Part shown: piece by piece, positions 15,875-48,167 of the stretch
Layout of the letters: each line of letters begins with the position of its first letter
Position numbering within the stretch: position 1 is the first letter of the stretch
Assembly: GCF_001619985.1 (NCBI RefSeq)
Contig: NW_017264203.1
Location: 744,001-808,000, forward strand
Direction: 5' to 3'
Origin: Xylona heveae TC161
Lineage: Eukaryota; Ascomycota; Xylonomycetes; Xylonales; Xylonaceae
DNA: 64,000 bases
Translations under genes and position numbers: made by a program
The notes under the pieces: model-generated
What the model saw: the letters and a program-made list of their open reading frames with translations, nothing else
Database searches by the model: none
What the model was told of the DNA's origin: nothing

Positions 15875-17344
15875 ATGAGAAGCTTCGTTGGCAACAGCAA
15901 AGATGGCATGTCTCAATATTCTGCCAATGATATAACCGCGCCAAGTAGTGCCATCGGCTCATCTGCCCTTAGACCAAACCCAATGGAGCTGGATGATGAG
16001 GAATGGGAGTACGAGTATGACGAGAATGAGACAGAGGTATGATTGCAAAACGTTTCACATGTTCTGTTGCACTGCAACTTTCGGCATTGAGAAATTTGAA
16101 ACTTATATTACTGGTAGACTTTCTACGTAACGATTGATCTCTCGTCCAGAAGCGGACCCGCGCGATCGAAAAGGAAACTACCCCCACAGACTCAAGAGGA
16201 CGGAGAAGAAGCTGAAGGCGAAGTCAATGAGGGGGAAGACGGCAACAATGATGACGGAGTCGATGCGGATGATAATGATGAGGAGAGAGAGCAAACGCCG
16301 CCTGGTTCACCGGCTCCTAGCCACGGAGGGGGAAGAGATGAAGCTTTAGAAGCTGCTCAGCGACATCCCCCGCAAGACTCAGATCCTGGCAATAATGCGC
16401 AAAAGCAGCAAAAAGGCGTACAAATCCTCGATCTACATACTTCTAATCCCATCATTTCTTATGATAATCAAATATTCAATTGCCATTGGTCATCAACGAT
16501 TGGCACAGATATGCTTTTCTCCAAGCCTTCTGCAAATCCCTCTCACCCTGTCGTGCGGTCCACTCACGGATACGACTTGGTGGCACTAACGTCAGCAAAA
16601 TTGATAGGTACGAGCGCACATCTGGCGCCCCGAAAGGAGGTACGGGTGAGCCGAAAAGGGGAAATAGCTGCTGCACAAGGAAGACAGCTTGAGAGGGGCA
16701 CTCACCCCACCTCTGGAGGGGCTGCAGAAGAGCCTATCATACCAGTGGGGTCTGGAGCAAGTGCAGCCAGACACAGTCAAGCACGATTCCTGGAACGCCT
16801 TATGAGGGCCAAGGACGCAAAAGGCGAGACAGACAGCGTTACTGTGTACAGCAAGAAAAGACTCACGCAAACCGGCTGGAGGGCATTGCAGAGCGAGCGA
16901 CGGAGAAGAGTTGAAGACATTGAAATTCTCCGTCATCTCGCTGAAGAAGGAGACGAGGAAGCCCAGTCCCAGCTAGAGCAGCTTGTCCAGGCTGATCCCC
17001 TAGGGAGCACTCACGGAGATACTCCAAGTGAGGCAGGGCCGTCTTCTCAACCTCAATCTTACGATGGTAATCTTTGGAGATCTGCTCTTGGAACGCCATG
17101 GGGAGACGATATTTTGCGAACGCCACGACGTGGCCCTGGACGACCTGGATCAAGACGGGGGAGAGGAAGTGGCAGAGCTACTCGAGGTTTTACGACGATG
17201 GGTCATTCTTTGATGACTTCAGAGTCGTCACCCCAAGATCCAAGCATTGACCAAAGTAACACAGCCACCCCCGCAGCTCGGTCCGAGTTCAGCACGCCTC
17301 AACCAGGAACCTCACTTCCCCCCGATGACGGCGCTCAAACTTAA
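15875..17344 (+). CDS. TFIIIC subunit of the sub6 (tau55/GTF3C6) type
   Basis: Predicted 462 aa in two exons, 15875-16036 and 16118-17344. TFIIIC binds the internal A and B boxes of tRNA genes and recruits TFIIIB and RNA polymerase III. The family signature is split: an N-terminal acidic-aromatic segment EWEYEYDENETETFYVTIDL (residues about 45-64, spanning the intron) and, after an acidic low-complexity linker, GVQILDLHTSNPIISYDNQI followed by FNCHWSSTIGTDMLF (about 154-190). Together these form the beta-barrel half that pairs with the large TFIIIC partner. The C-terminal half is charged, with a Gly/Arg-rich stretch (RRGPGRPGSRRGRGSGR) that could bind nucleic acid. No phosphoglycerate-mutase-like domain as in yeast Tfc7 is seen. 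The palindrome array begins 361 bp downstream. Confidence 0.82.
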
Positions 17345-17705
17345 GGAATCAGGGATCCAGGTTATCTGAGAATTTCGTTTCTCTCTATTTCAGAGGTTTC
17401 CCACCACCTGGTCTTTGTCAATATTCATTGAGGTAGACAACTTTTCATTTCTCTATTCAATTAGATGATCTCTTTGGCCGACGCTTCGTTAGAACCCTAC
17501 CTTTTCATCACCAAATATTCCTTACTAACACTGCGTTCATTGCAGAAAGTCTGTCGACGATATACATATGAATCAAGTTTCCGGAGTCACCGCGCTAGTA
17601 CCAATTACAGCCAGCGACATTCGAGACGGAGGCTCTGGCAAGCAAGCATGAAATTGCGCAGAGGGAGGGGTGCGCGCCTTACCCAATTAGGCAATCAGAC
17701 AATTA
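17345..17705. other. 3' flank of the TFIIIC gene up to the palindrome array
   Basis: No gene is seen. The last 30 bp (from about 17676, CTTACCCAATTAGGCAATC) are the conserved outer flank of palindrome unit A in inverted orientation, so the element proper begins slightly before the 167-bp core. Confidence 0.5.
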
Positions 17706-17872
17706 TCGTCGGACGTCTACGAGATTTGAAACGCCATACAAAGCCACCAGGGCTTCGAGAATTTAATTCCTCCTTTTGAAGTGTCGGATTCCAACACTCC
17801 ATAAGACCTATTTATCTCAAACTTGAGCTAGAGGAATTGTATGGCAAGTTGAATTGCGTAGACGTTCGACGA
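17706..17872 (-). repeat. Palindrome unit A (inverted)
   Basis: 167 bp. The arm with GAATTAAATTC and CTTTGTATGG, which is the right arm in the other units, is the left arm here. The unit is therefore inverted, which is why strand is given as minus. The right end reads GTAGACGTTCGACGA. Confidence 0.9.
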
Positions 17873-18067
17873 TCATTGAATGGTGAGCCTTTTGGGGTTG
17901 CCGAGGGGTGACCCTCTCTGGCTTATGGCGGCTATGAGAAAAACCCTCTAGTCCGGAAACGCTTGCAGCACAATATGCACTAGTCTTTCCAGAAGCGCCC
18001 TGTCGCTTGAGATATTCGCGCGCATACACCATATACACAGACTCCCTAATCGGGTAATTTTCAAACA

Positions 18068-18234
18068 CCGTCGAACGTCTACCAAATTCGAATCCACATA
18101 CAATTTCTCCAGTTCAAGGTCTTGGTAAATAGGTCTTATGAAGTGTCGGATTCCAACACTTCATAAGGAAGAAATAAATTCTCGAAGCTCCAGGGGCTTT
18201 GTAAGAGAACTCGAATTGTGTAGACGTTTGACGA
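18068..18234 (+). repeat. Palindrome unit B
   Basis: 167 bp. Centre GGTCTTATGAAGTGT, CGGATTCCA, ACACTTCATAAGG. The ends read CGTCGAACGTCTAC and GTAGACGTTTGACGA. Confidence 0.92.
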
Positions 18235-18392
18235 CATTTCAGGATTACTGTTTTGGGACATACCCTCGTGTATGTGAACGAAGCACTAGAAGCACGCGAC
18301 ACACTAGACGCGCCAAAACTAACGTGGCAACTGGATACTTGGCGCCCAAGCTACCTTCTCCCTGGATTCCCGGATTCGGAAATACAAAATCG

Positions 18393-18559
18393 TCGTCGAA
18401 CGTCTACAGAATTCGAATCCCCATATAATTCCTCAATCTCAAGATTCTGATAAATAGGTCTTATGAAGTGTCGGATTCCAGCACCTCATAAGGAGAAATT
18501 GAATTCTCAGAGCTCCTGGAGCTTTGTATGGGAACTCGAATTCTGTAGACGTCCGACGA
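18393..18559 (+). repeat. Palindrome unit C
   Basis: 167 bp. The ends read TCGTCGAACGTCTAC and GTAGACGTCCGACGA. The centre is CTTATGAAGTGTCGGATTCC followed by GCACCTCATAAGG. Confidence 0.92.
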
Positions 18560-18694
18560 ACTTTTGAGGATTACCCGATTGGGGATGGCTCCTAATAAAA
18601 TGGACGAAACGCCAGAAGAGTAGCCCTACTACTGGCGCTTGAGACTTAGCAACGTGGCATAGCATGAAATGGCTATATTTGGAAATGCAAAAAG

Positions 18695-18861
18695 TCGTCG
18701 GACGTCTACAGAATTGCAGTTTCCATACAATTTCTTCGGGACAAGATTTTGATAAATGGGTCTTATGAGGTGCTGGAATCCAACACTTCATAAGGAGGAA
18801 TAAAACTCTCGAAGCTTTGGGGACTTTGTATGGGGTTTCAAATTGTGTAGACGTCCAACGA
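18695..18861 (+). repeat. Palindrome unit D
   Basis: 167 bp. The ends read TCGTCGGACGTCTAC and GTAGACGTCCAACGA. The centre is CTTATGAGGTGCTGGAATCC followed by ACACTTCATAAGG. Confidence 0.92.
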
Positions 18862-18974
18862 ACTTTCGTGGATTACCAAATCGGGAATGGCTCTCAAATT
18901 GGATGGATGAAGCGCTAGAAGCGCATCATAGCGCGTGGGATTCGGTGGGCTTGCGGCCAGCATAGGTTCGATTC

Positions 18975-19139
18975 TCGTCGGACGTCTACCAAATTCCAAC
19001 TCCCATACACTTTCTCCAGGTCCAGATTCTGGCAGATGGGTCTTATGAAGTGCTGGAATCCAAAACTTCATAAGGAGGAATCAAATTCTTGGGGTTTTGG
19101 GGGTTTTCCACGGGGTGCAGATTCGTAGACGTCCGACGA
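18975..19139 (+). repeat. Palindrome unit E
   Basis: 165 bp. The ends read TCGTCGGACGTCTAC and GTAGACGTCCGACGA. The right arm is G-rich (TTGGGGTTTTGGGGG) and has drifted most from the left arm. Confidence 0.9.
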
Positions 19140-19230
19140 TAATTGTAGGATTGCCGTTTTGGGACAAATGGACAGGCGCAGCGTCAGACGCGCTAATAGT
19201 GCTTGGCACTTCATGTCCTACCGCAGAGTA

Positions 19231-19397
19231 TCGTCGAACGTCTACCAAATTGCAATCCCCATACAATTCCTCTAAAAGGAGTCTGAGACAAATGGGTCTT
19301 ATGAAGTGTTGGAATCTGACACTTCATAAGGAGGAATTAAATTATTGAAGCCCTGGGAGCTTTGCGTGGCATGTTCAATTTGGTAGACGTCCGACGA
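19231..19397 (+). repeat. Palindrome unit F
   Basis: 167 bp. The outer 22 nt of the two arms (TCGTCGAACGTCTACCAAATTG against TCGTCGGACGTCTACCAAATTG after reverse complementing) differ at one site. The inner 12 nt CTTATGAAGTGT are perfect. Confidence 0.93.
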
Positions 19398-19513
19398 TAA
19401 TTGTAGGATTACCGGATTAGGAACAGGCTGGAGTGAGTGGATGGAGCAGTACACTCGGCAGGTGTTGAGGCTCTACGTGTAGTCCGTAGTTGCCTGATTA
19501 GGAAAATGCAAAA

Positions 19514-19692
19514 CACCTCCAACGTGTGCATAATTTGCGTCTCGGTGAAGACTCCTAGCACACCAAATATATACTCATACTCCAAATGGAGTATTTGACT
19601 CTTTATTCTCACAATATCTAAATAGTATTCATTAGAATTTTGCGCGTGGTTATATGGGAAATGCAATTTGGCATCTTTAGACGTCCTCTGCT
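19514..19692 (+). repeat. Decayed palindrome unit G
   Basis: The left flank GATTAGGAAAATGCAAAAC and the start CACCTCCAACGTGTGCATAA resemble the left side of unit C. The right side, TTATATGGGAAATGCAATTT ending in TTTAGACGTCCTC, resembles the right arm. The centre is replaced by ATACTCCAAATGGAGTAT, itself an inverted repeat. It is recognisable only in outline. Confidence 0.65.
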
Positions 19693-20030: not shown

Positions 20031-21525
20031 ATGCTTTTCTTTTCAAGCTTTTGCCTGCTCCTTTGCATTCTGCCGCTGGCGGTGCTATGTGCGGAGGATT
20101 TTTACAAGGTGCGTAATTAGCTGACCTGCTGGATTTGTCTGCTACAATTGTGCATCTTTATTAATTGCGCTGCGGCACTTCTGCACCGCTTTGCATCACT
20201 TTGCATCTCATCAGCATTGTCATGATGACATAACAAATCGCTTTATACAACGGTCCATCTCAGGTATCTGCTTGTGGATAGAAGCTGACTCTTACTAGTT
20301 ACTTGGAATAGACAAATCTGCATCGGATCGCGAGATCAAAAAGGCATATAGAACGTTGAGCAAACAGTTCCATCCTGATAAGAACCCGTATGGTGTTTCA
20401 ATCTTGCATAAACAATAGTCTGGACTAGGAAGCTAATAGCAGATACCGCGTCACAGAAACGATGAAGCTGCGCACCACAAGTTCGTCGACATTTCCGAAG
20501 CATACGAGGTTCTAATCGACCAGGAGACACGCAAGATCTACGATCAATATGGTCATGATGGCCTCGCGCAACACAAGCAAGGTGGTGGCCCGCAGCACCA
20601 CGATCCATTCGACCTCTTCTCGCGCTTCTTTGGCGGAGGAGGGCATTTCGGACACGGCGGTGGTCAGCGGCGCGGACCTGACATGGAAGTGCGGGTCGAT
20701 GTACCACTACGAGACTTTTACAATGGACAGGAGACTGAGTTCAGCATTGAGCGTCAACAAATCTGTGAGGACTGTGAAGGTTCTGGCTCGGCCGATGGCC
20801 AGGTGGAGACGTGTTCCGTTTGTGGAGGTCGAGGCATGAAGATCCAGAAAATGATGCTGGCGCCGGGCATCTTCCAGCAGATGCAGAGCATGTGCGATTC
20901 ATGCGGGGGCAAAGGCAAGACAATCAAGCATGCATGCCCCGTGTGTAAGGGATCCCGTGTCGTCAAAAAGGCGTCCTCGCACAGTCTCCACATTGAGAAA
21001 GGAATGCCAAGGGACATGCGCATCCCCTATGAGAATGAAGCCGACGAGAGTCCAGACTGGGTTGCCGGCGACTTGGTCGTCCATCTGTCTGAGAAAGAGC
21101 CTGAACTGGGCCGGGAAGACGAGGAAAGAACCGATGGAACGTTCTTCAGGAGAAAAGGAAAGGATCTCTTCTGGCGAGAAGTTCTCAGCTTGCGCGAGGC
21201 TTGGCTCGGCGATTGGACTAGAAACCTTACACATCTGGACGGGCATGTCGTTCGTCTCGGACGTAAGCGCGGCCAGACCGTGCAGCCGAATTCCGTCGAG
21301 GTTATTCCAGAGGAAGGTATGCCGATTTGGCACGAGGAAGGCGGCCATTCTGCCGAGGAATTCGGTGCGCTGCACGTCGAGTACGTTGTTGTGCTGCCTG
21401 ATCAAATGGACAAGGCAATGGAAAAGGAGTTTTGGGGTGTCTGGGAAAAGTGGAGAAAGAAGTCGGGCGTGGATCTGGCAAAAGACAGCGGAAGGCCTGT
21501 TAAATCCAGCCATGACGAGTTGTAG
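20031..21525 (+). CDS. scj1: ER-lumenal DnaJ (Hsp40) chaperone, Scj1-like
   Basis: Predicted 411 aa in three exons: 20031-20108, 20299-20387 and 20457-21525. Scj1 is the J-protein partner of BiP/Kar2 in the ER lumen and helps folding and disposal of misfolded proteins. A signal peptide ([20 protein letters not shown]) leads directly into the J domain, with HPD seen in [10 protein letters not shown] Gly-rich stretch follows ([19 protein letters not shown]). The cysteine-rich zinc region has four motifs: [24 protein letters not shown] and CPVCKGSR. The substrate-binding domain follows. The protein ends in HDEL, the fungal ER-retention signal, which settles the location. Length fits the family. 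The fourth zinc motif ends in R rather than G. Confidence 0.94.
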
Positions 21526-28584: not shown

Positions 28585-30591
28585 TCAAGACTTTCGTCGT
28601 CAAAGCGATCAGTGAAGTATATCCCTGCAGTCTCCCAATTTTAGCTCAGAATTTGGATCATAGACACTGGTTGCCTTTGTCTGCCTTGTTTTCTTGGTTC
28701 TGGATGGCCTTCCTGTCTTGTTTGTCGTCGACTTTGCTGTGGTTTTCGTCCTTGTTGACCTCAGAGTCTTTGACGACCGTGGTGTCAAACAGCTCTCGAG
28801 GGAAGCACCTCGCTTTGTCCCTCTGGGAATCGTTGACTCGCTTTGATCCTCCGAGGGATAAGAAAACTAGAGATAGATCTTTAGTATCGATATAAGAAAA
28901 TATTTAGTTATACATCCTCCTCTGAGGTCTGTCAGATCCGGACCGCCCTGGCTTATCTCTTTCAGATCGCAGCGCGAAAAGTCAGCTAAGGCTCAAGAGA
29001 CCCGCCACTGAAGCACCTGGAGCAACTTCCGAGGGCCAGTGCTGAGATCGCGTGTTGTCTCGTCGTTCAAATCCTTCTACGGCGCGCTTGGTGAGGAAAA
29101 GAGCGGAGAGTTGTCGTAGAAAGCTGAGCACATTTGCGGTTGTCTTGCACGATACTCTCTAGAAGAGCTTTCTGAGATGACTGTGGAATCAGACAAGGAT
29201 GCCATGTTATAAAAAGGCCATAACCAGATCCACCATTGGACGAGCGCCATTAGGAATCGAGCCCAATATCAGTTATATAAACAGCTCTTGGAACAATAGT
29301 GGCCGAGATGGCATGTTTATGTTTGTTTTCTGAGTGGCGAAAACGGAAGTCGTAGATGAGTCGCTGCGACTTCTGCGGTTTCCTCGGTTGAGACAGTTTC
29401 TTTAAAATTGTTATGCCCAAGAGCTAGCTGCCCTTCCATTTGATAATGCAGGTACGATACACAGATCTAGCGCAGCGGATCCGAACGGGGAAGGACACAC
29501 TTCAAGAGAGCCCTTTCATTCTCCAAGGCTTTGTTGGCAGAGATACTATGCCAATACTGTCTGGTAAACGGATTGAACGTGGATTTTTTCCCCATTTCCA
29601 AAGGGCTTTCCATGCAGGACGAATGGAGGCTATTTAAAAGAATTTTGTGCTCAGCGCGGCTGCCAAGGGAATAAAAGAGTCACTTTAGACTCCACCTTCA
29701 CTGTGAGAAGGTCTTTGATGAATCTTCAAGATAAAGCCCACCGAAGATAACTGAATTCATTGGTTAGCAAAGATATCATGAGAAGAATAGCAAGTGAATT
29801 GGGTTTCTGGGGTTTTGTCAGATTGAATATTCTTTTTTCCGGAATAGCCCTTGATCAGGAATCCGAATCCCATTTGTTGGATGTGATGGTCTGGCTGTAT
29901 GTAGATCCTTTACGTCTGTCTGTTCGTTCCACTGTTCTTCCAAGGGCTTCGCTCCCGAGGCTAGTGGCGGGTATCTCTCACCAAACCAGGGTTTGGCTTT
30001 CCATCAGAGTGACCTTCTGGCCTCTGCTTCCCCTATCTCGTTTTGCAGAAGTCATGCATCCACTCAATTTACTTCACCAGTATTGTTCGAAGAATTGTTT
30101 TATGACAAGATTGCACATGGGTTTGGCTGTATACAGCCTCGGGCTATGTAATGCTCATGGCCAGTTATACTTGACTACGTCCTTAATATGATAGAATATA
30201 ATAATTTTAGTCTTAAATAAACAAAACATATAAATTCAACACTCTAAAAATGTTTCAATTTGCTTGTAGGATATATATACCCCTAGAAATTATGTATGTT
30301 GAATTTCAAGATAAATTGCCTCGTATATGTTGAGATATAAATACTATAAAAAAAAATTAAAATCCATTGGATTCATACTTTTGTATGGGATTTCTACCTG
30401 TTCGGGTTGGCTGATTACGTCAAGTTAGCTCATCTCGCTAGCTGTGTCCCCGGCAGCTCCCAAACTCGGATCGTTGCCCGAGTACGCGATCAAAAAGTGT
30501 TGCACCTCCATTCTTGTCCGAAATATAAACAACCAACAATTAGCTACCTAGTCAACTGTTACAACACCTACAGCCACTAGACTTGTCAGTC
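28585..30591. other. Gene-free stretch, about 2 kb
   Basis: No supported gene. A 143-codon frame at 29760-30191 (+) has no recognisable family features. The last 400 bp (30190-30420) are AT-rich. Parts may derive from old, unrecognisable repeats or more of the relic upstream. Confidence 0.45.
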
Positions 30592-32007
30592 ATGACGGCG
30601 GCACCGCCGTTTTCACAGACGGGTTCACAGCCTGACCAAGGACTCGGATACGCTACCTATCCTGACTTGAATGGCCAGCCTCAAACAACGCTCTCTCCTG
30701 ATACTACATCATCACAACCACAACAGCCCCAGTCAAACTCGCAGACAGAAACACAAACACAGACGCAAGCTGCGAGACGACAGCAGCAACAATCGAAACA
30801 AAAGCAAAATCAGAAACAACAGCCAAAGGCAGCGCCATCGACGCAACGCCTCGCGTCACTTATCGCTGCGCAAAGTGTCCGAAAGACTTTCCGTCGAGAA
30901 CTCACGCCCTTTGAGCGCGGTCAAATTGTAGGCGCCGCATGTATTGGCAATGCCTCCATACGCGACATTGCTCGCGTCTTTGGGATAAACACGAGCACCG
31001 TGCAGCGCACCCTGAAAGCCTGGCGTCTTACACAGGAGCAGGAGCAGGAGCAAGCACAACCCGCAGGATCTGCCCAGCCCGCTGATGGCGCAGAGGGCGC
31101 AAATCCCACCACGGATAGCGATATCCTTGATGCCGACGGCCATCATAATAACAACATCAATGCCAATGACGGGCACGACGCGCAGGTCAACGGAACCGGG
31201 ATCGGGAGTGGACTAGATACATTAGTACCTGCCCACACAATATCTGGCGCTGAGCAGCCCGGTACAGCGTCTCCAACTACAACTAGAACTAGTCCTACAA
31301 ACGATACAAGCACAAAAGCACTGACGTCGACATCTACAGCTGCACCTACAACAGCACCTACAGCATCAACCCCGCAGAAACTCTACGACGGGACATCCAA
31401 GCCGCGAACAGGCCGGCATCGCAAGACGACCCTCGAGCAGGACGAAGCGATATGGCGCGCTGTCACGGACCATCCCGGCATGGGCGTCAAGACGCTGCAC
31501 GCGACTGTGCTGCAGGGCATGGGCATTAGTTTGTCCACGGTCAAAGGACGCATGAAGGAGGTGCAACAGCAACAGCAACAACAACAACAGCAGCAGCGAC
31601 GGTCGAAAGCGCGAGGCGCGGCAGGAGGAGCGAGCGTTACAGGCGCTGGGGTAAGTAAAGGGAAAGGCAAGGGCAAAGGTACGGGGACAAGGACGAGTAC
31701 AGGTACATTTACGGCACCAACAACAGATGGAGCTGCAGGAACGGAAAGGCAGAATCCGTCGGCTGCTACTGCTGCGGGAGTAGATGAGAATGGAATAGGC
31801 CTCGCGTTCGCAGCGCACCAGTCTCATGCGCCTTCTCTCGACCCTGTTCCTGGTCCTGGTCACGCTCCTGGAAGCGTGCAAAGCACTGGGACTATGCAGG
31901 ACCACGTTCCAGAAATTCATCTCCATTCTCGAATGTATCCCGATCAGAGCCTTCTGCCGTGTGGAATCATGACACTCAAAGGGTATGGCGGCGGGTCGGA
32001 AAAGTAG
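30592..32007 (+). CDS. Gln-rich protein with two transposase-type helix-turn-helix regions
   Basis: Predicted 471 aa, one exon, starting at the ATG of MTAAPPFSQTGSQPDQGLGY. After a Gln/Thr-rich N-terminus comes a helix-turn-helix (residues about 104-147) with ELTPFERGQIVGAACIGNAS and IRDIARVFGINTSTVQRTLK. A second comes at about 272-325, opened by the basic turn TGRHRKTT and continuing EQDEAIWRAVTDHPGMGVKT and LHATVLQGMGISLSTVKGRM. This paired arrangement with a GRPRK-like linker is that of the DNA-binding half of Tc1/mariner transposases. No DDE catalytic domain follows; instead there is a poly-Gln run (about 325-337) and low-complexity sequence. It could be a domesticated transposase DNA-binding domain acting as a transcription regulator. 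Alternatively it is the intact N-terminal piece of a degraded transposon, but the open frame and Gln-rich tails favour a host gene. Confidence 0.7.
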   Translation: MTAAPPFSQTGSQPDQGLGYATYPDLNGQPQTTLSPDTTSSQPQQPQSNSQTETQTQTQAARRQQQQSKQKQNQKQQPKAAPSTQRLASLIAAQSVRKTFRRELTPFERGQIVGAACIGNASIRDIARVFGINTSTVQRTLKAWRLTQEQEQEQAQPAGSAQPADGAEGANPTTDSDILDADGHHNNNINANDGHDAQVNGTGIGSGLDTLVPAHTISGAEQPGTASPTTTRTSPTNDTSTKALTSTSTAAPTTAPTASTPQKLYDGTSKPRTGRHRKTTLEQDEAIWRAVTDHPGMGVKTLHATVLQGMGISLSTVKGRMKEVQQQQQQQQQQQRRSKARGAAGGASVTGAGVSKGKGKGKGTGTRTSTGTFTAPTTDGAAGTERQNPSAATAAGVDENGIGLAFAAHQSHAPSLDPVPGPGHAPGSVQSTGTMQDHVPEIHLHSRMYPDQSLLPCGIMTLKGYGGGSEK

Positions 32008-45074: not shown

Positions 45075-45581
45075 TCCGTCGTCCGGTTCGTCGTCCGGTC
45101 TAGCCCTCTCGGATCAGTTCACTGTGATTCAGTGCTTTCTTCGAGGTGTGAACACATGGTTCATGGTCCATGGTAATGGTATAACATTCGGCATGGGAAT
45201 GTGACGACCTGGCGTTGGTGATTTTTTTTTTTTTCCGGTGGTATAACGCATGTAGGGATAATTGCCACTTATGACTGTATTGTACGAGGTATGACGATTC
45301 GTTACGGTATTTGGGTATGGGTATAGCTTGAGCATGTCCATGACTTTCTTTCTTTCTTTCTTTCTTTTCCATCTCCACATCTTTTTTACTTTTATTTTTT
45401 ATTGTCATTTTACTCTTTTCTTTGGTCATTTTTTTATTACCATTTTACTCTTTCTTCGGTCATCTTTCATTACCATGTTACTCTTTCTTCGGTCATTTTT
45501 TTACCATTACTCGTACCGCTCTGGTACTTTCTCCACATTTACAGAGTACTCCGTACTTCTCTTGGTCAATGTTTATACTAT

Positions 45582-45595
45582 CGGAGTATACTCCG
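45582..45595. repeat. Perfect palindrome CGGAGTATACTCCG
   Basis: Two head-to-head copies of the dispersed 9-mer core (CGGAGTA and TACTCCG) meet at 45588/45589 to form a 14-bp perfect palindrome, a plausible dimeric binding site. Confidence 0.9.
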
Positions 45596-45999
45596 TATCT
45601 TGATCACTAATATCTCCGCTTCCCGCTTCCCGCTTCCCGCTCTCCGCTTTCCGCTTGTCGTCCATTTCCTGGAATCGTCTAGAATAATATACATTGTTTA
45701 TAGTCATCTATTTATCCTTTCGTCTTTAACTCGTGCTATTTTTATTATTCGTCTTATCGTCTCCAATTCATTTTACTTCATCTCTATTCATCTCTATTAT
45801 CCTGACACTGTCCCCACTCTTACAATCTACTATCTACTATCTAATATCTACTACCTATGTACCATCTCAATCTACAACTCGCTGGGCGTCCCTGTTTTCG
45901 AGCTCCTTGTTTCGGGGCTTCCAAGATCCGTTCCAACTTCCAAGACTGGGGACTGGGATCGGGACTGGGTTTGGGACTGGGATCGCGATTCAAGACACG

Positions 46000-47280
46000 A
46001 TGACTGATGCTAATGCTGAGTTGATACTGATACTGAGCTGATTACTCATTCAGATTATGATTACGGACATGATTACGGACATGATACGGATATGATACGG
46101 ATATGATACGGATATGATTACTGAATGCCGTTGACTGATTATGAGTGCTGCTGACGGATATGATTACGGATCGTGGATCGTGAGTGATTATTGATAGTGT
46201 ATTACGAGATGCTGTTATGGATTACGAGATGCTGTTATGGATTACGAGATGATGTTTATGGATTACGAGATGATGTTTATGGATACAGTACGGATTACTG
46301 ATTGATTACAGATTACAAATATTGAGTAGTGATCGCGGATCGTGGACCACGGATTAGGATACAGCACAGATACAGACTACTCTGTATGGATACGGCATGG
46401 CTGCACGGATCTGGATACAGACTATGGATACTGATCAGTCATCATGCATCACGATACTGAGTATTGGAGTACGCACCATGATACGGAACGATACCGAGTA
46501 CTACAGTCTACGATACAGCTTCCCTGCCTGTCCGCCAGCCACTCAGTTTATCATTTTTCGGTTCCTCTCAATTGTTTAGTTTAGTTTATTGAGTCGGTCC
46601 TACGGAGTATGCATCACGATTCATGATACTGAGTACTATGATACAGCTTCCCTTCCCTGGCTGTCCGCCATTCAGTTTAGTCTTTATCCCTTTTTGGTTC
46701 CTTTCAGTTTCTTTTTCTTTTTTTCCCTTTACAGAGCCTGATGCTGTACGACGTCGATAGTCAATAGTCGATAATCAATACGTCAAGACTGAATAGTAAT
46801 CACACATCGTGATGACAGAGACCAGTACTAGTATGGAATACAGAATACAGTCCCACGGAATACTTTGTACGGTCCTACCGTCTACGAATACAGATGATTA
46901 CTATCATCACTATGATTACTGTCGTGATTACAGATATGATTACTGATTACTGATTACTGAATAGCACTATGGATGATGTCTTGGATTACGATTACAGATT
47001 GGACAATGGATTACTGATTACTGATGAGTTATGATTACTGATTTGATTACACATCACGATTCATGAATACTGAATACTGATCAGGGATACAGGTACAGGC
47101 TATAGATACAGACTATAGTCATGGATACAGAGTACAGATACAGACTGGATATATCATACAGCATGGATCAAGAATACTGAGTATGGGCACTAAATACAAA
47201 TACATATTACAGATCGCAGATCAAGATGACGGATCACAGATACAGATACAGATACAAAAGACTGAGAATAATATATTAAT
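46000..47280 (+). repeat. Decayed GATTAC/GATAC-type simple-repeat zone
   Basis: Variants of GATTACTGATTACTGA, GATACGGATATGATACGGAT, GATTACGAGATGATGTTTATG and ACAGATACAGACTATG recur over nearly 1.3 kb, with short perfect stretches separated by drift. Cytosine is scarce on this strand in places. It looks like several microsatellites that expanded and decayed. Confidence 0.75.
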
Positions 47281-48167
47281 ACTACGGTACTACAGACTAC
47301 AGTACGACAGGACTATCCAAGGACCAACGAGGGCAAGTATTATCTGAATTACTGCACTCTGCACACTGCACACCGTACACAATATAGCATACAGCATACA
47401 GCGTACAACCGTACGCAGTATACAGTACACGGTACACCTCGGTCCTCGAATACGCATAATTTCTACTATGTAGGATCCAGAGCTACGAACACTTGCTGTA
47501 CGGAGAGCATGCTGTACAGAGTGCACTACATAAAATAAAAACATGTACACCTGGGTAGCTCCAGCTCCTCATCGAGAGTGATTAAGTTGAGTATATGAAG
47601 GTACGCAGATACGAAGGTATGAAATGAGTGTATGAGATATGAATATATGAGTACGTGAGGACATGAGGAGTTGTGTACAGGAGTGAATCAGTAAAGGAGT
47701 AAAGGAGTATCGGTGATGCAGATATCTTAAGAGTAGTCGTGTACCTTCTCAATAACAAAGAAAAATCAAGAAAAAAGAGAGGAAAAGAAAACAAAGAACA
47801 GAGAGGAAATAGTAGTCTCAGTGTGGATCGTAGTGTCATTGCCAGTGTACGATTGCTCAAAGTGTCCATGCTGGGTCTCATCGACCATACAAGATTACTG
47901 AGAGGTAGGACTGGCTACCAGTATTGAGCAGGAGGGATTCTTTTCACTTCACTACAAGTGGCATGAACGACACGAGCGTATGATCATCACATCAATCGAA
48001 ATGAGAAACTTAAAACCGAGTACTGATACCGAGTACTGAGTGCATTGATATCTACTCGTACTGCCAAAGCCCTGTTTTACCCCAGAAAGAAAAAGAGATG
48101 ACGTCAACGAGATGCAAAGGGAGAACAAGCATGCGCGCGCAGACGAAAGAAGGATATATTCCATCAT

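Follow-up and report, generated by a model that had tools for sequence, protein, structure and literature searches.

What an array of six long palindromes of nearly equal length is doing in a fungal genome is the question raised by a 64-kb stretch of Xylona heveae TC161 DNA (contig NW_017264203.1, positions 744,001 to 808,000; hereafter the window, in which positions are counted unless a contig or locus is named). An earlier note on this stretch had read the array as uniform 167-bp palindromes without a known counterpart, and had suggested a hairpin-RNA or small-RNA locus, a structural DNA element or a multimer of a non-autonomous transposon. Among these suggestions the structural DNA element comes nearest. 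Judging from its sequence patterns, the array is probably (we put the probability at roughly 0.6) a homotypic cluster of composite predicted protein-binding sites that would act in cis as a regulatory or chromatin element. The note had also taken the host for one of the Eurotiomycetes; X. heveae TC161 belongs to Xylonomycetes.

Results

The array is flanked by a TFIIIC subunit 6 gene on the left (open frame 16118-17344, + strand) and a DnaJ gene on the right (open frame 20440-21525, + strand). Its six palindromic units, found at 17706-19397 with the shared ends and centre that had been described, are 167 bp long in five cases and 165 bp in one, exactly as reported. Units 2 to 6 (18068-18234, 18393-18559, 18695-18861, 18975-19139 and 19231-19397; unit 5 is the 165-bp one) are on the + strand, and unit 1 (17706-17872, - strand) is inverted relative to them. 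The unit ends consist of TCGTCGRACGTCTAC and its complement, so placed that two 15-mers face each other: 17706-17720 (+) and 17858-17872 (-) in unit 1, 18068-18082 (+) and 18220-18234 (-) in unit 2, 18393-18407 (+) and 18545-18559 (-) in unit 3, 18695-18709 (+) and 18847-18861 (-) in unit 4, 18975-18989 (+) and 19125-19139 (-) in unit 5, and 19231-19245 (+) and 19383-19397 (-) in unit 6. With up to two mismatches, TCGTYRRACGTCTAC was matched 12 times in the window, all 12 within the array; dinucleotide shuffles averaged 0.48 matches and never exceeded 2. The unit centre, CTTATGAAGTGT...ACACTTCATAAG, was found with minor changes and forms a conserved 33-bp palindrome around CTTATGAAGTGT (18135-18167 in unit 2, unstranded, with equivalents in the other units).

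The repeat period takes in the spacers, with 256-362 bp between unit starts. From left to right, the gaps between successive units (17872-19231) measure 195, 158, 135, 113 and 91 bp, the final three decrements being 22-23 bp each, or about two helical turns. The array had been drawn as far as 19692, but its last unit stops at 19397, and beyond it we found only a decayed seventh site (19493-19529, + strand), in which the box CCTGATTAGG (19493-19502) is intact and the 15-mer (19515-19529) carries five mismatches. On frame length, a coding array was rejected, the longest stop-to-stop frame within the array being 121 aa. Elsewhere in the window, a 487-aa open frame at 30544-32007 with glutamine runs scored above the cut-off for HTH_23 and below the cut-offs for HTH_38 and HTH_32; it is possibly a domesticated transposase DNA-binding protein. 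A stretch dense in short tandem repeats of many different kinds (45395-48039; periods 7 to 41) may be a repeat-rich gene.

The units are uniform, as had been claimed, in length but not in sequence, since the six differ pairwise by 17-27%. When three further units on contig C13 were included, divergence reached 17-38%, yet all nine units were 165-167 bp long. Invariant columns among the nine were concentrated at the ends (23 of 30) and in the centre (16 of 33) compared with elsewhere (16 of 104; Fisher's test, p = 6e-10 for the ends and 2e-4 for the centre). Gap openings also differed, at 37 per 327 mismatches in the units and 110 per 263 in the spacers of five same-oriented repeats, although these figures come from 10 pairwise comparisons whose pairs are non-independent. 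The array thus has what characterizes a homotypic cluster, namely several copies of a site conserved above their surroundings.

Related loci were sought throughout the genome, which comprises 24.28 Mb in 17 contigs. Among the best candidates scored, the only matches of unit 3, and of unit 1 taken together with its flank, were to this array and C13, and unit 3 had no further match at E up to 10 outside these two arrays; such a unit search had been proposed earlier as a check. The C13 array comprises three units, the third of which was seen by 15-mer mapping. The absence of a known counterpart therefore does not hold within the genome, where C13 provides one, but it stands in that no described family was found. 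The 15-mer itself was more widespread, with 54 matches at up to one mismatch across the genome against 10 for the reversed control.

Mapped in 15 sequences, with L048 added later (16 in total), the 15-mer occurred as facing pairs 150-152 bp apart, as direct repeats at about 150 bp, as back-to-back pairs at 55-57 bp and singly, with 1 to 17 sites per locus. Facing pairs were found in this array and on C13, and C8 holds a decayed pair with the same centre and a 24-bp pair beside it. Direct repeats occurred on C10 (intervals of 150, 150 and 315 bp) and C1 (148, 153 and 138 bp), and back-to-back pairs on C6 and C5; facing pairs on C6 are 159-201 bp apart. Over the 16 sequences, adjacent intervals below 400 bp were convergent in 17 cases (24 to 201 bp), divergent in 17 (55 to 210 bp) and direct in nine (138 to 315 bp). 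Support for a spacing of about 150 bp comes from perhaps two independent lineages.

The direct-repeat loci have two additional blocks in common, GGAGACGTGTCGACG and TGACATCA or close variants. In L034:3943-4630 (C10) and L028:4135-4588 (C1), modules of about 150 bp contain the 15-mer, GGAGACGTGTCGACG and TGACATCA, the last two sometimes as near forms, in one common order, and the TGACATCA block resembles the complement of the 15-mer with one inserted base. At up to two mismatches, GGAGACGTGTCGACG had 12 matches, which is below the 17 of its control; its three exact matches are all on C1, and eight of the 12 matches fall at 15-mer loci.

When 58 sites were stacked, a second block appeared upstream of the 15-mer, consisting of A-rich positions -5/-4 and a CArG-type box, CCN6GG, starting at -27 to -22. 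Such a box started in this range at 41 of 59 sites, compared with 1,068 of 55,476 background positions (1.9%); because the loci were chosen by 15-mer matches and sites inside one array are related by descent, 41 of 59 overstates the number of independent cases. At least one box was present in 12 of the 16 loci, and none was found at -27 to -22 in L035, L037, L038 and L039. In many of the boxes at least one of the six inner positions is C or G, so that they fit CCN6GG rather than the strict CC(A/T)6GG. In this array, boxes lie at 17682-17691 (+) and 17888-17897 (-) beside the left and right sites of unit 1, at 18044-18054 (+; two overlapping CCN6GG registers) beside the left site of unit 2, at 18370-18379 (+) and 18574-18583 (-) on the two sides of unit 3, and at 18876-18885 (-), 19154-19163 (-) and 19412-19421 (-) beside the right sites of units 4, 5 and 6. 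A strict box was lacking at 18 of the 59 sites, including four of the 12 here: the right site of unit 2, the left site of unit 4 (relaxed box only) and the left sites of unit 5 (none in range) and unit 6 (none).

The combination of box and 15-mer also recurred genome-wide. A pattern of core plus box gave 25 matches against one in the reversed control, and core plus half box gave 34 listed matches (29 distinct) against none in the control. Conversely, looser patterns without the box barely exceeded their reversed controls (94 against 78 and 104 against 83), indicating that isolated weak 15-mers are mostly due to chance. Among 20 stretches with extra matches, the box was present in L048, L049, L053, L054, L055 and L056 and absent from 14. 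In L053, L054 and L055, a variant 15-mer ends in GTC rather than TAC, and the box precedes three of the four sites read. Altogether, about 20 loci including this array have a box or half box, some of them with a variant 15-mer. The composite occurs in convergent, divergent, direct and single arrangements, with surroundings largely unrelated between locus kinds, and in five divergent pairs at 55-57 bp one box is common to each pair, as judged by eye. The C6 array (L032:4255-6432), which adjoins an SRA-domain gene, has 17 sites, among them four back-to-back pairs at 56-57 bp with one common CArG box each.

Alternative origins of the palindromes

The earlier note had predicted that each core folds into a long imperfect hairpin, and folding bore this out, giving -59 to -74 kcal/mol and z of -5.0 to -10.1 for the six units (for unit 1, the reverse complement was used). 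All nine units, those on C13 included, yielded stable hairpin precursors (z of -3.1 to -10.1). Such folds, together with the conserved unit length, would suit an hpRNA/milRNA locus, in which a transcript forms six 167-nt hairpins from which Dicer cuts small RNAs, and arrays of long hairpin folds are likewise a feature of known fungal loci of this type. This explanation is nevertheless improbable. Compensatory change is absent here: paired cells amounted to 65.0% against 65.2% in shuffles, and pairs changed on both sides numbered 13 against 14.7. Arms paired no better within a unit than across units, and chimeric units folded about as well as real ones (mean -64.5 against -65.2). In six direct-repeat units (C10 and C1) the 15-mer is retained but folding resembles that of shuffles (z of 2.0 to -1.6), such that the conserved ends recur there with no hairpin; two facing pairs on C6 fold moderately (z of -4.4 and -4.6). 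Outside the two arrays, no genomic target for unit 3 was found at E up to 10 among the best candidates scored, another difference from the known hpRNA/milRNA loci. Rfam gave no match at the gathering threshold in the window and 13 related loci, which led us to reject a known structured RNA, and ARAGORN (bacterial code) detected no tRNA in the same set. The palindrome itself is real, because sliding the arms past each other lowers pairing to 33-41%; it reflects a similarity that the two arms have inherited and that is greatest at the ends and centre.

A multimer of a MITE, with the 15-bp ends serving as terminal inverted repeats of a non-autonomous DNA transposon, would account for the inverted ends and uniform length, the copies on two contigs and the decayed facing pair on C8 that shares their centre, but we regard it as very improbable. 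None of the six unit edges has a target-site duplication of 3-12 bp (two have a 2-bp identity), the spacers belong to the repeat and were duplicated along with the units, and the CArG-type box sits outside the supposed transposon ends. Furthermore, these ends stand elsewhere singly or as direct repeats around unrelated interiors, and by sequence search whole units occur in two arrays only, rather than dispersed as entire elements. More remote still is a neutral, minisatellite-like relic in which an old inverted duplication was multiplied by slippage. The tandem repeats that include spacers, the shrinkage of the spacers from 195 to 91 bp and the decay of the seventh site are consistent with such a history, but the ends and centre are conserved far above the rest of the unit, the spacers carry about four times as many gaps per mismatch as the units, and the 15-mer with its box recurs at otherwise unrelated loci.

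Discussion

A box at a preferred distance from the 15-mer is the arrangement of a composite site of an SRF-type MADS protein, and a protein of this type is the most likely binder of the CArG-type box, going by the base pattern. The 15-bp element would be the site of a second DNA-binding protein. The genome has a Mcm1-type MADS gene of two exons (C9:972053-972334) and a MEF2/RlmA-type MADS gene (C1:885494), both classes being assigned by eye. In published work, McmA of Aspergillus nidulans is described as recognizing CC(A/T)6GG and acting cooperatively with ClrB (PMC5468973), and in three yeast lineages Mcm1 and Rap1 sites are a fixed distance apart (PMC6173580). The composites here resemble the SRF/Mcm1/McmA operators (McmA-ClrB, Mcm1-Rap1 and Mcm1-alpha2) in having a CArG-type box near a second site, and those on C6 and C5 resemble the symmetric form, in which a single box is flanked by two partner sites. 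The composites differ from these operators in their putative partner site of 15 bp, in a distance that spans a 6-bp range and in numbering 1 to 17 sites per locus.

In the homotypic-cluster reading that we prefer, a full site would consist of a CArG-type box followed 12-17 bp later by the 15-bp partner site, and two such sites would face each other at 150-152 bp, about one nucleosome. The DNA between them would be an old, decaying inverted duplication, and the array looks palindromic because its paired sites face each other across this duplication. The MADS protein may mark or open the place and its partner bind beside it; repeated pairs could then bracket a nucleosome and recruit cofactors that determine how the interval is packaged into chromatin or transcribed. 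What the sequence shows directly is the sites, with their co-occurrence, recurrence, spacing and conservation; that two proteins bind them, that a nucleosome sits between them and that genes respond is our inference. The length of a chromatosome is 167 bp, and its agreement with the unit length may be a coincidence. As in the homotypic transcription-factor site clusters of enhancers, many copies in a short intergenic stretch are conserved above their surroundings; the differences are the facing pairs at 150-152 bp and the location of two clusters between convergent frames.

No common theme was evident among the neighbouring genes at the loci whose flanks were examined. The C13 array (cupin/DBR1) and the C6 array (SRA/MFS) both sit between convergent open frames, these being Pfam-supported frames picked by the analyst rather than gene models. 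A simple promoter is therefore unlikely at these two loci, and promotion of an adjacent gene is doubtful as a general role. Moreover, at none of the seven loci with a Pfam-supported frame on both sides were the frames divergent. These observations would also suit a role in chromosome architecture or replication instead of transcriptional enhancement, with the sites serving as boundaries, origins, condensin-loading sites or polar fork barriers. We regard this explanation as possible but unlikely; seven loci make too small a sample, and genes that escaped notice may intervene between the frames. According to published work, condensin is recruited at RDT1 in yeast by a Mcm1 site with a Fob1 site next to it (PMC10132618), and forks stall at Sap1 sites arranged as direct repeats (Ter1) but not at those arranged as inverted repeats (SAS1; PMC6053445). 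The yeast recombination enhancer/RDT1 is like the predicted array in placing a MADS site beside the site of a second protein within an intergenic chromatin element, a resemblance in arrangement; yeast has one such locus against about 20 here.

The genome also encodes an Abp1/CENP-B-type protein, a further point in favour of an architectural element: PF03221 had five matches, and one of these genes, on C12, is an Abp1 homologue (PDB 1iuf, E = 1.4e-22). Arrays of CENP-B boxes and Abp1 sites are repeated long sites at nucleosome-like spacing, as are those described here. However, when set by eye against the CENP-B box consensus, the 15-mer shows only TCGNNNNA in common, and the present arrays are small and intergenic; a CENP-B-type protein as partner of the 15-mer would be a guess. 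In general description, the MATE/AMA1 repeats of Aspergillus nidulans are similar, being palindromic units that recur within the genome of a fungus. It is conceivable, though doubtful, that the roughly 20 loci make up a new class of fungal chromosome element, in which Mcm1-type and 15-bp-site proteins would sit side by side and organize chromatin without being tied to promoters. Some arrays of this hypothetical class would be facing pairs one nucleosome apart, possibly serving as boundaries, fork barriers or condensin-loading sites.

As far as we checked, no described family matches the array. Four 15-mer strings did not occur in the literature texts searched, one 12-letter piece of the motif occurs in an unrelated paper on plants and bacteria, and no description of the element appeared in the titles and abstract openings among the matches listed. 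On the preferred reading, a striking array of palindromes can arise from facing protein sites and not from RNA hairpins. A composite of about 40 bp with strict pair spacing, recurring at about 20 loci of a 24-Mb genome, would give access to regulatory or chromatin elements of a fungal class that has received little study: a 15-bp probe could serve to retrieve the predicted partner of the 15-mer, and changing the spacing by half or whole helical turns would test whether it matters.
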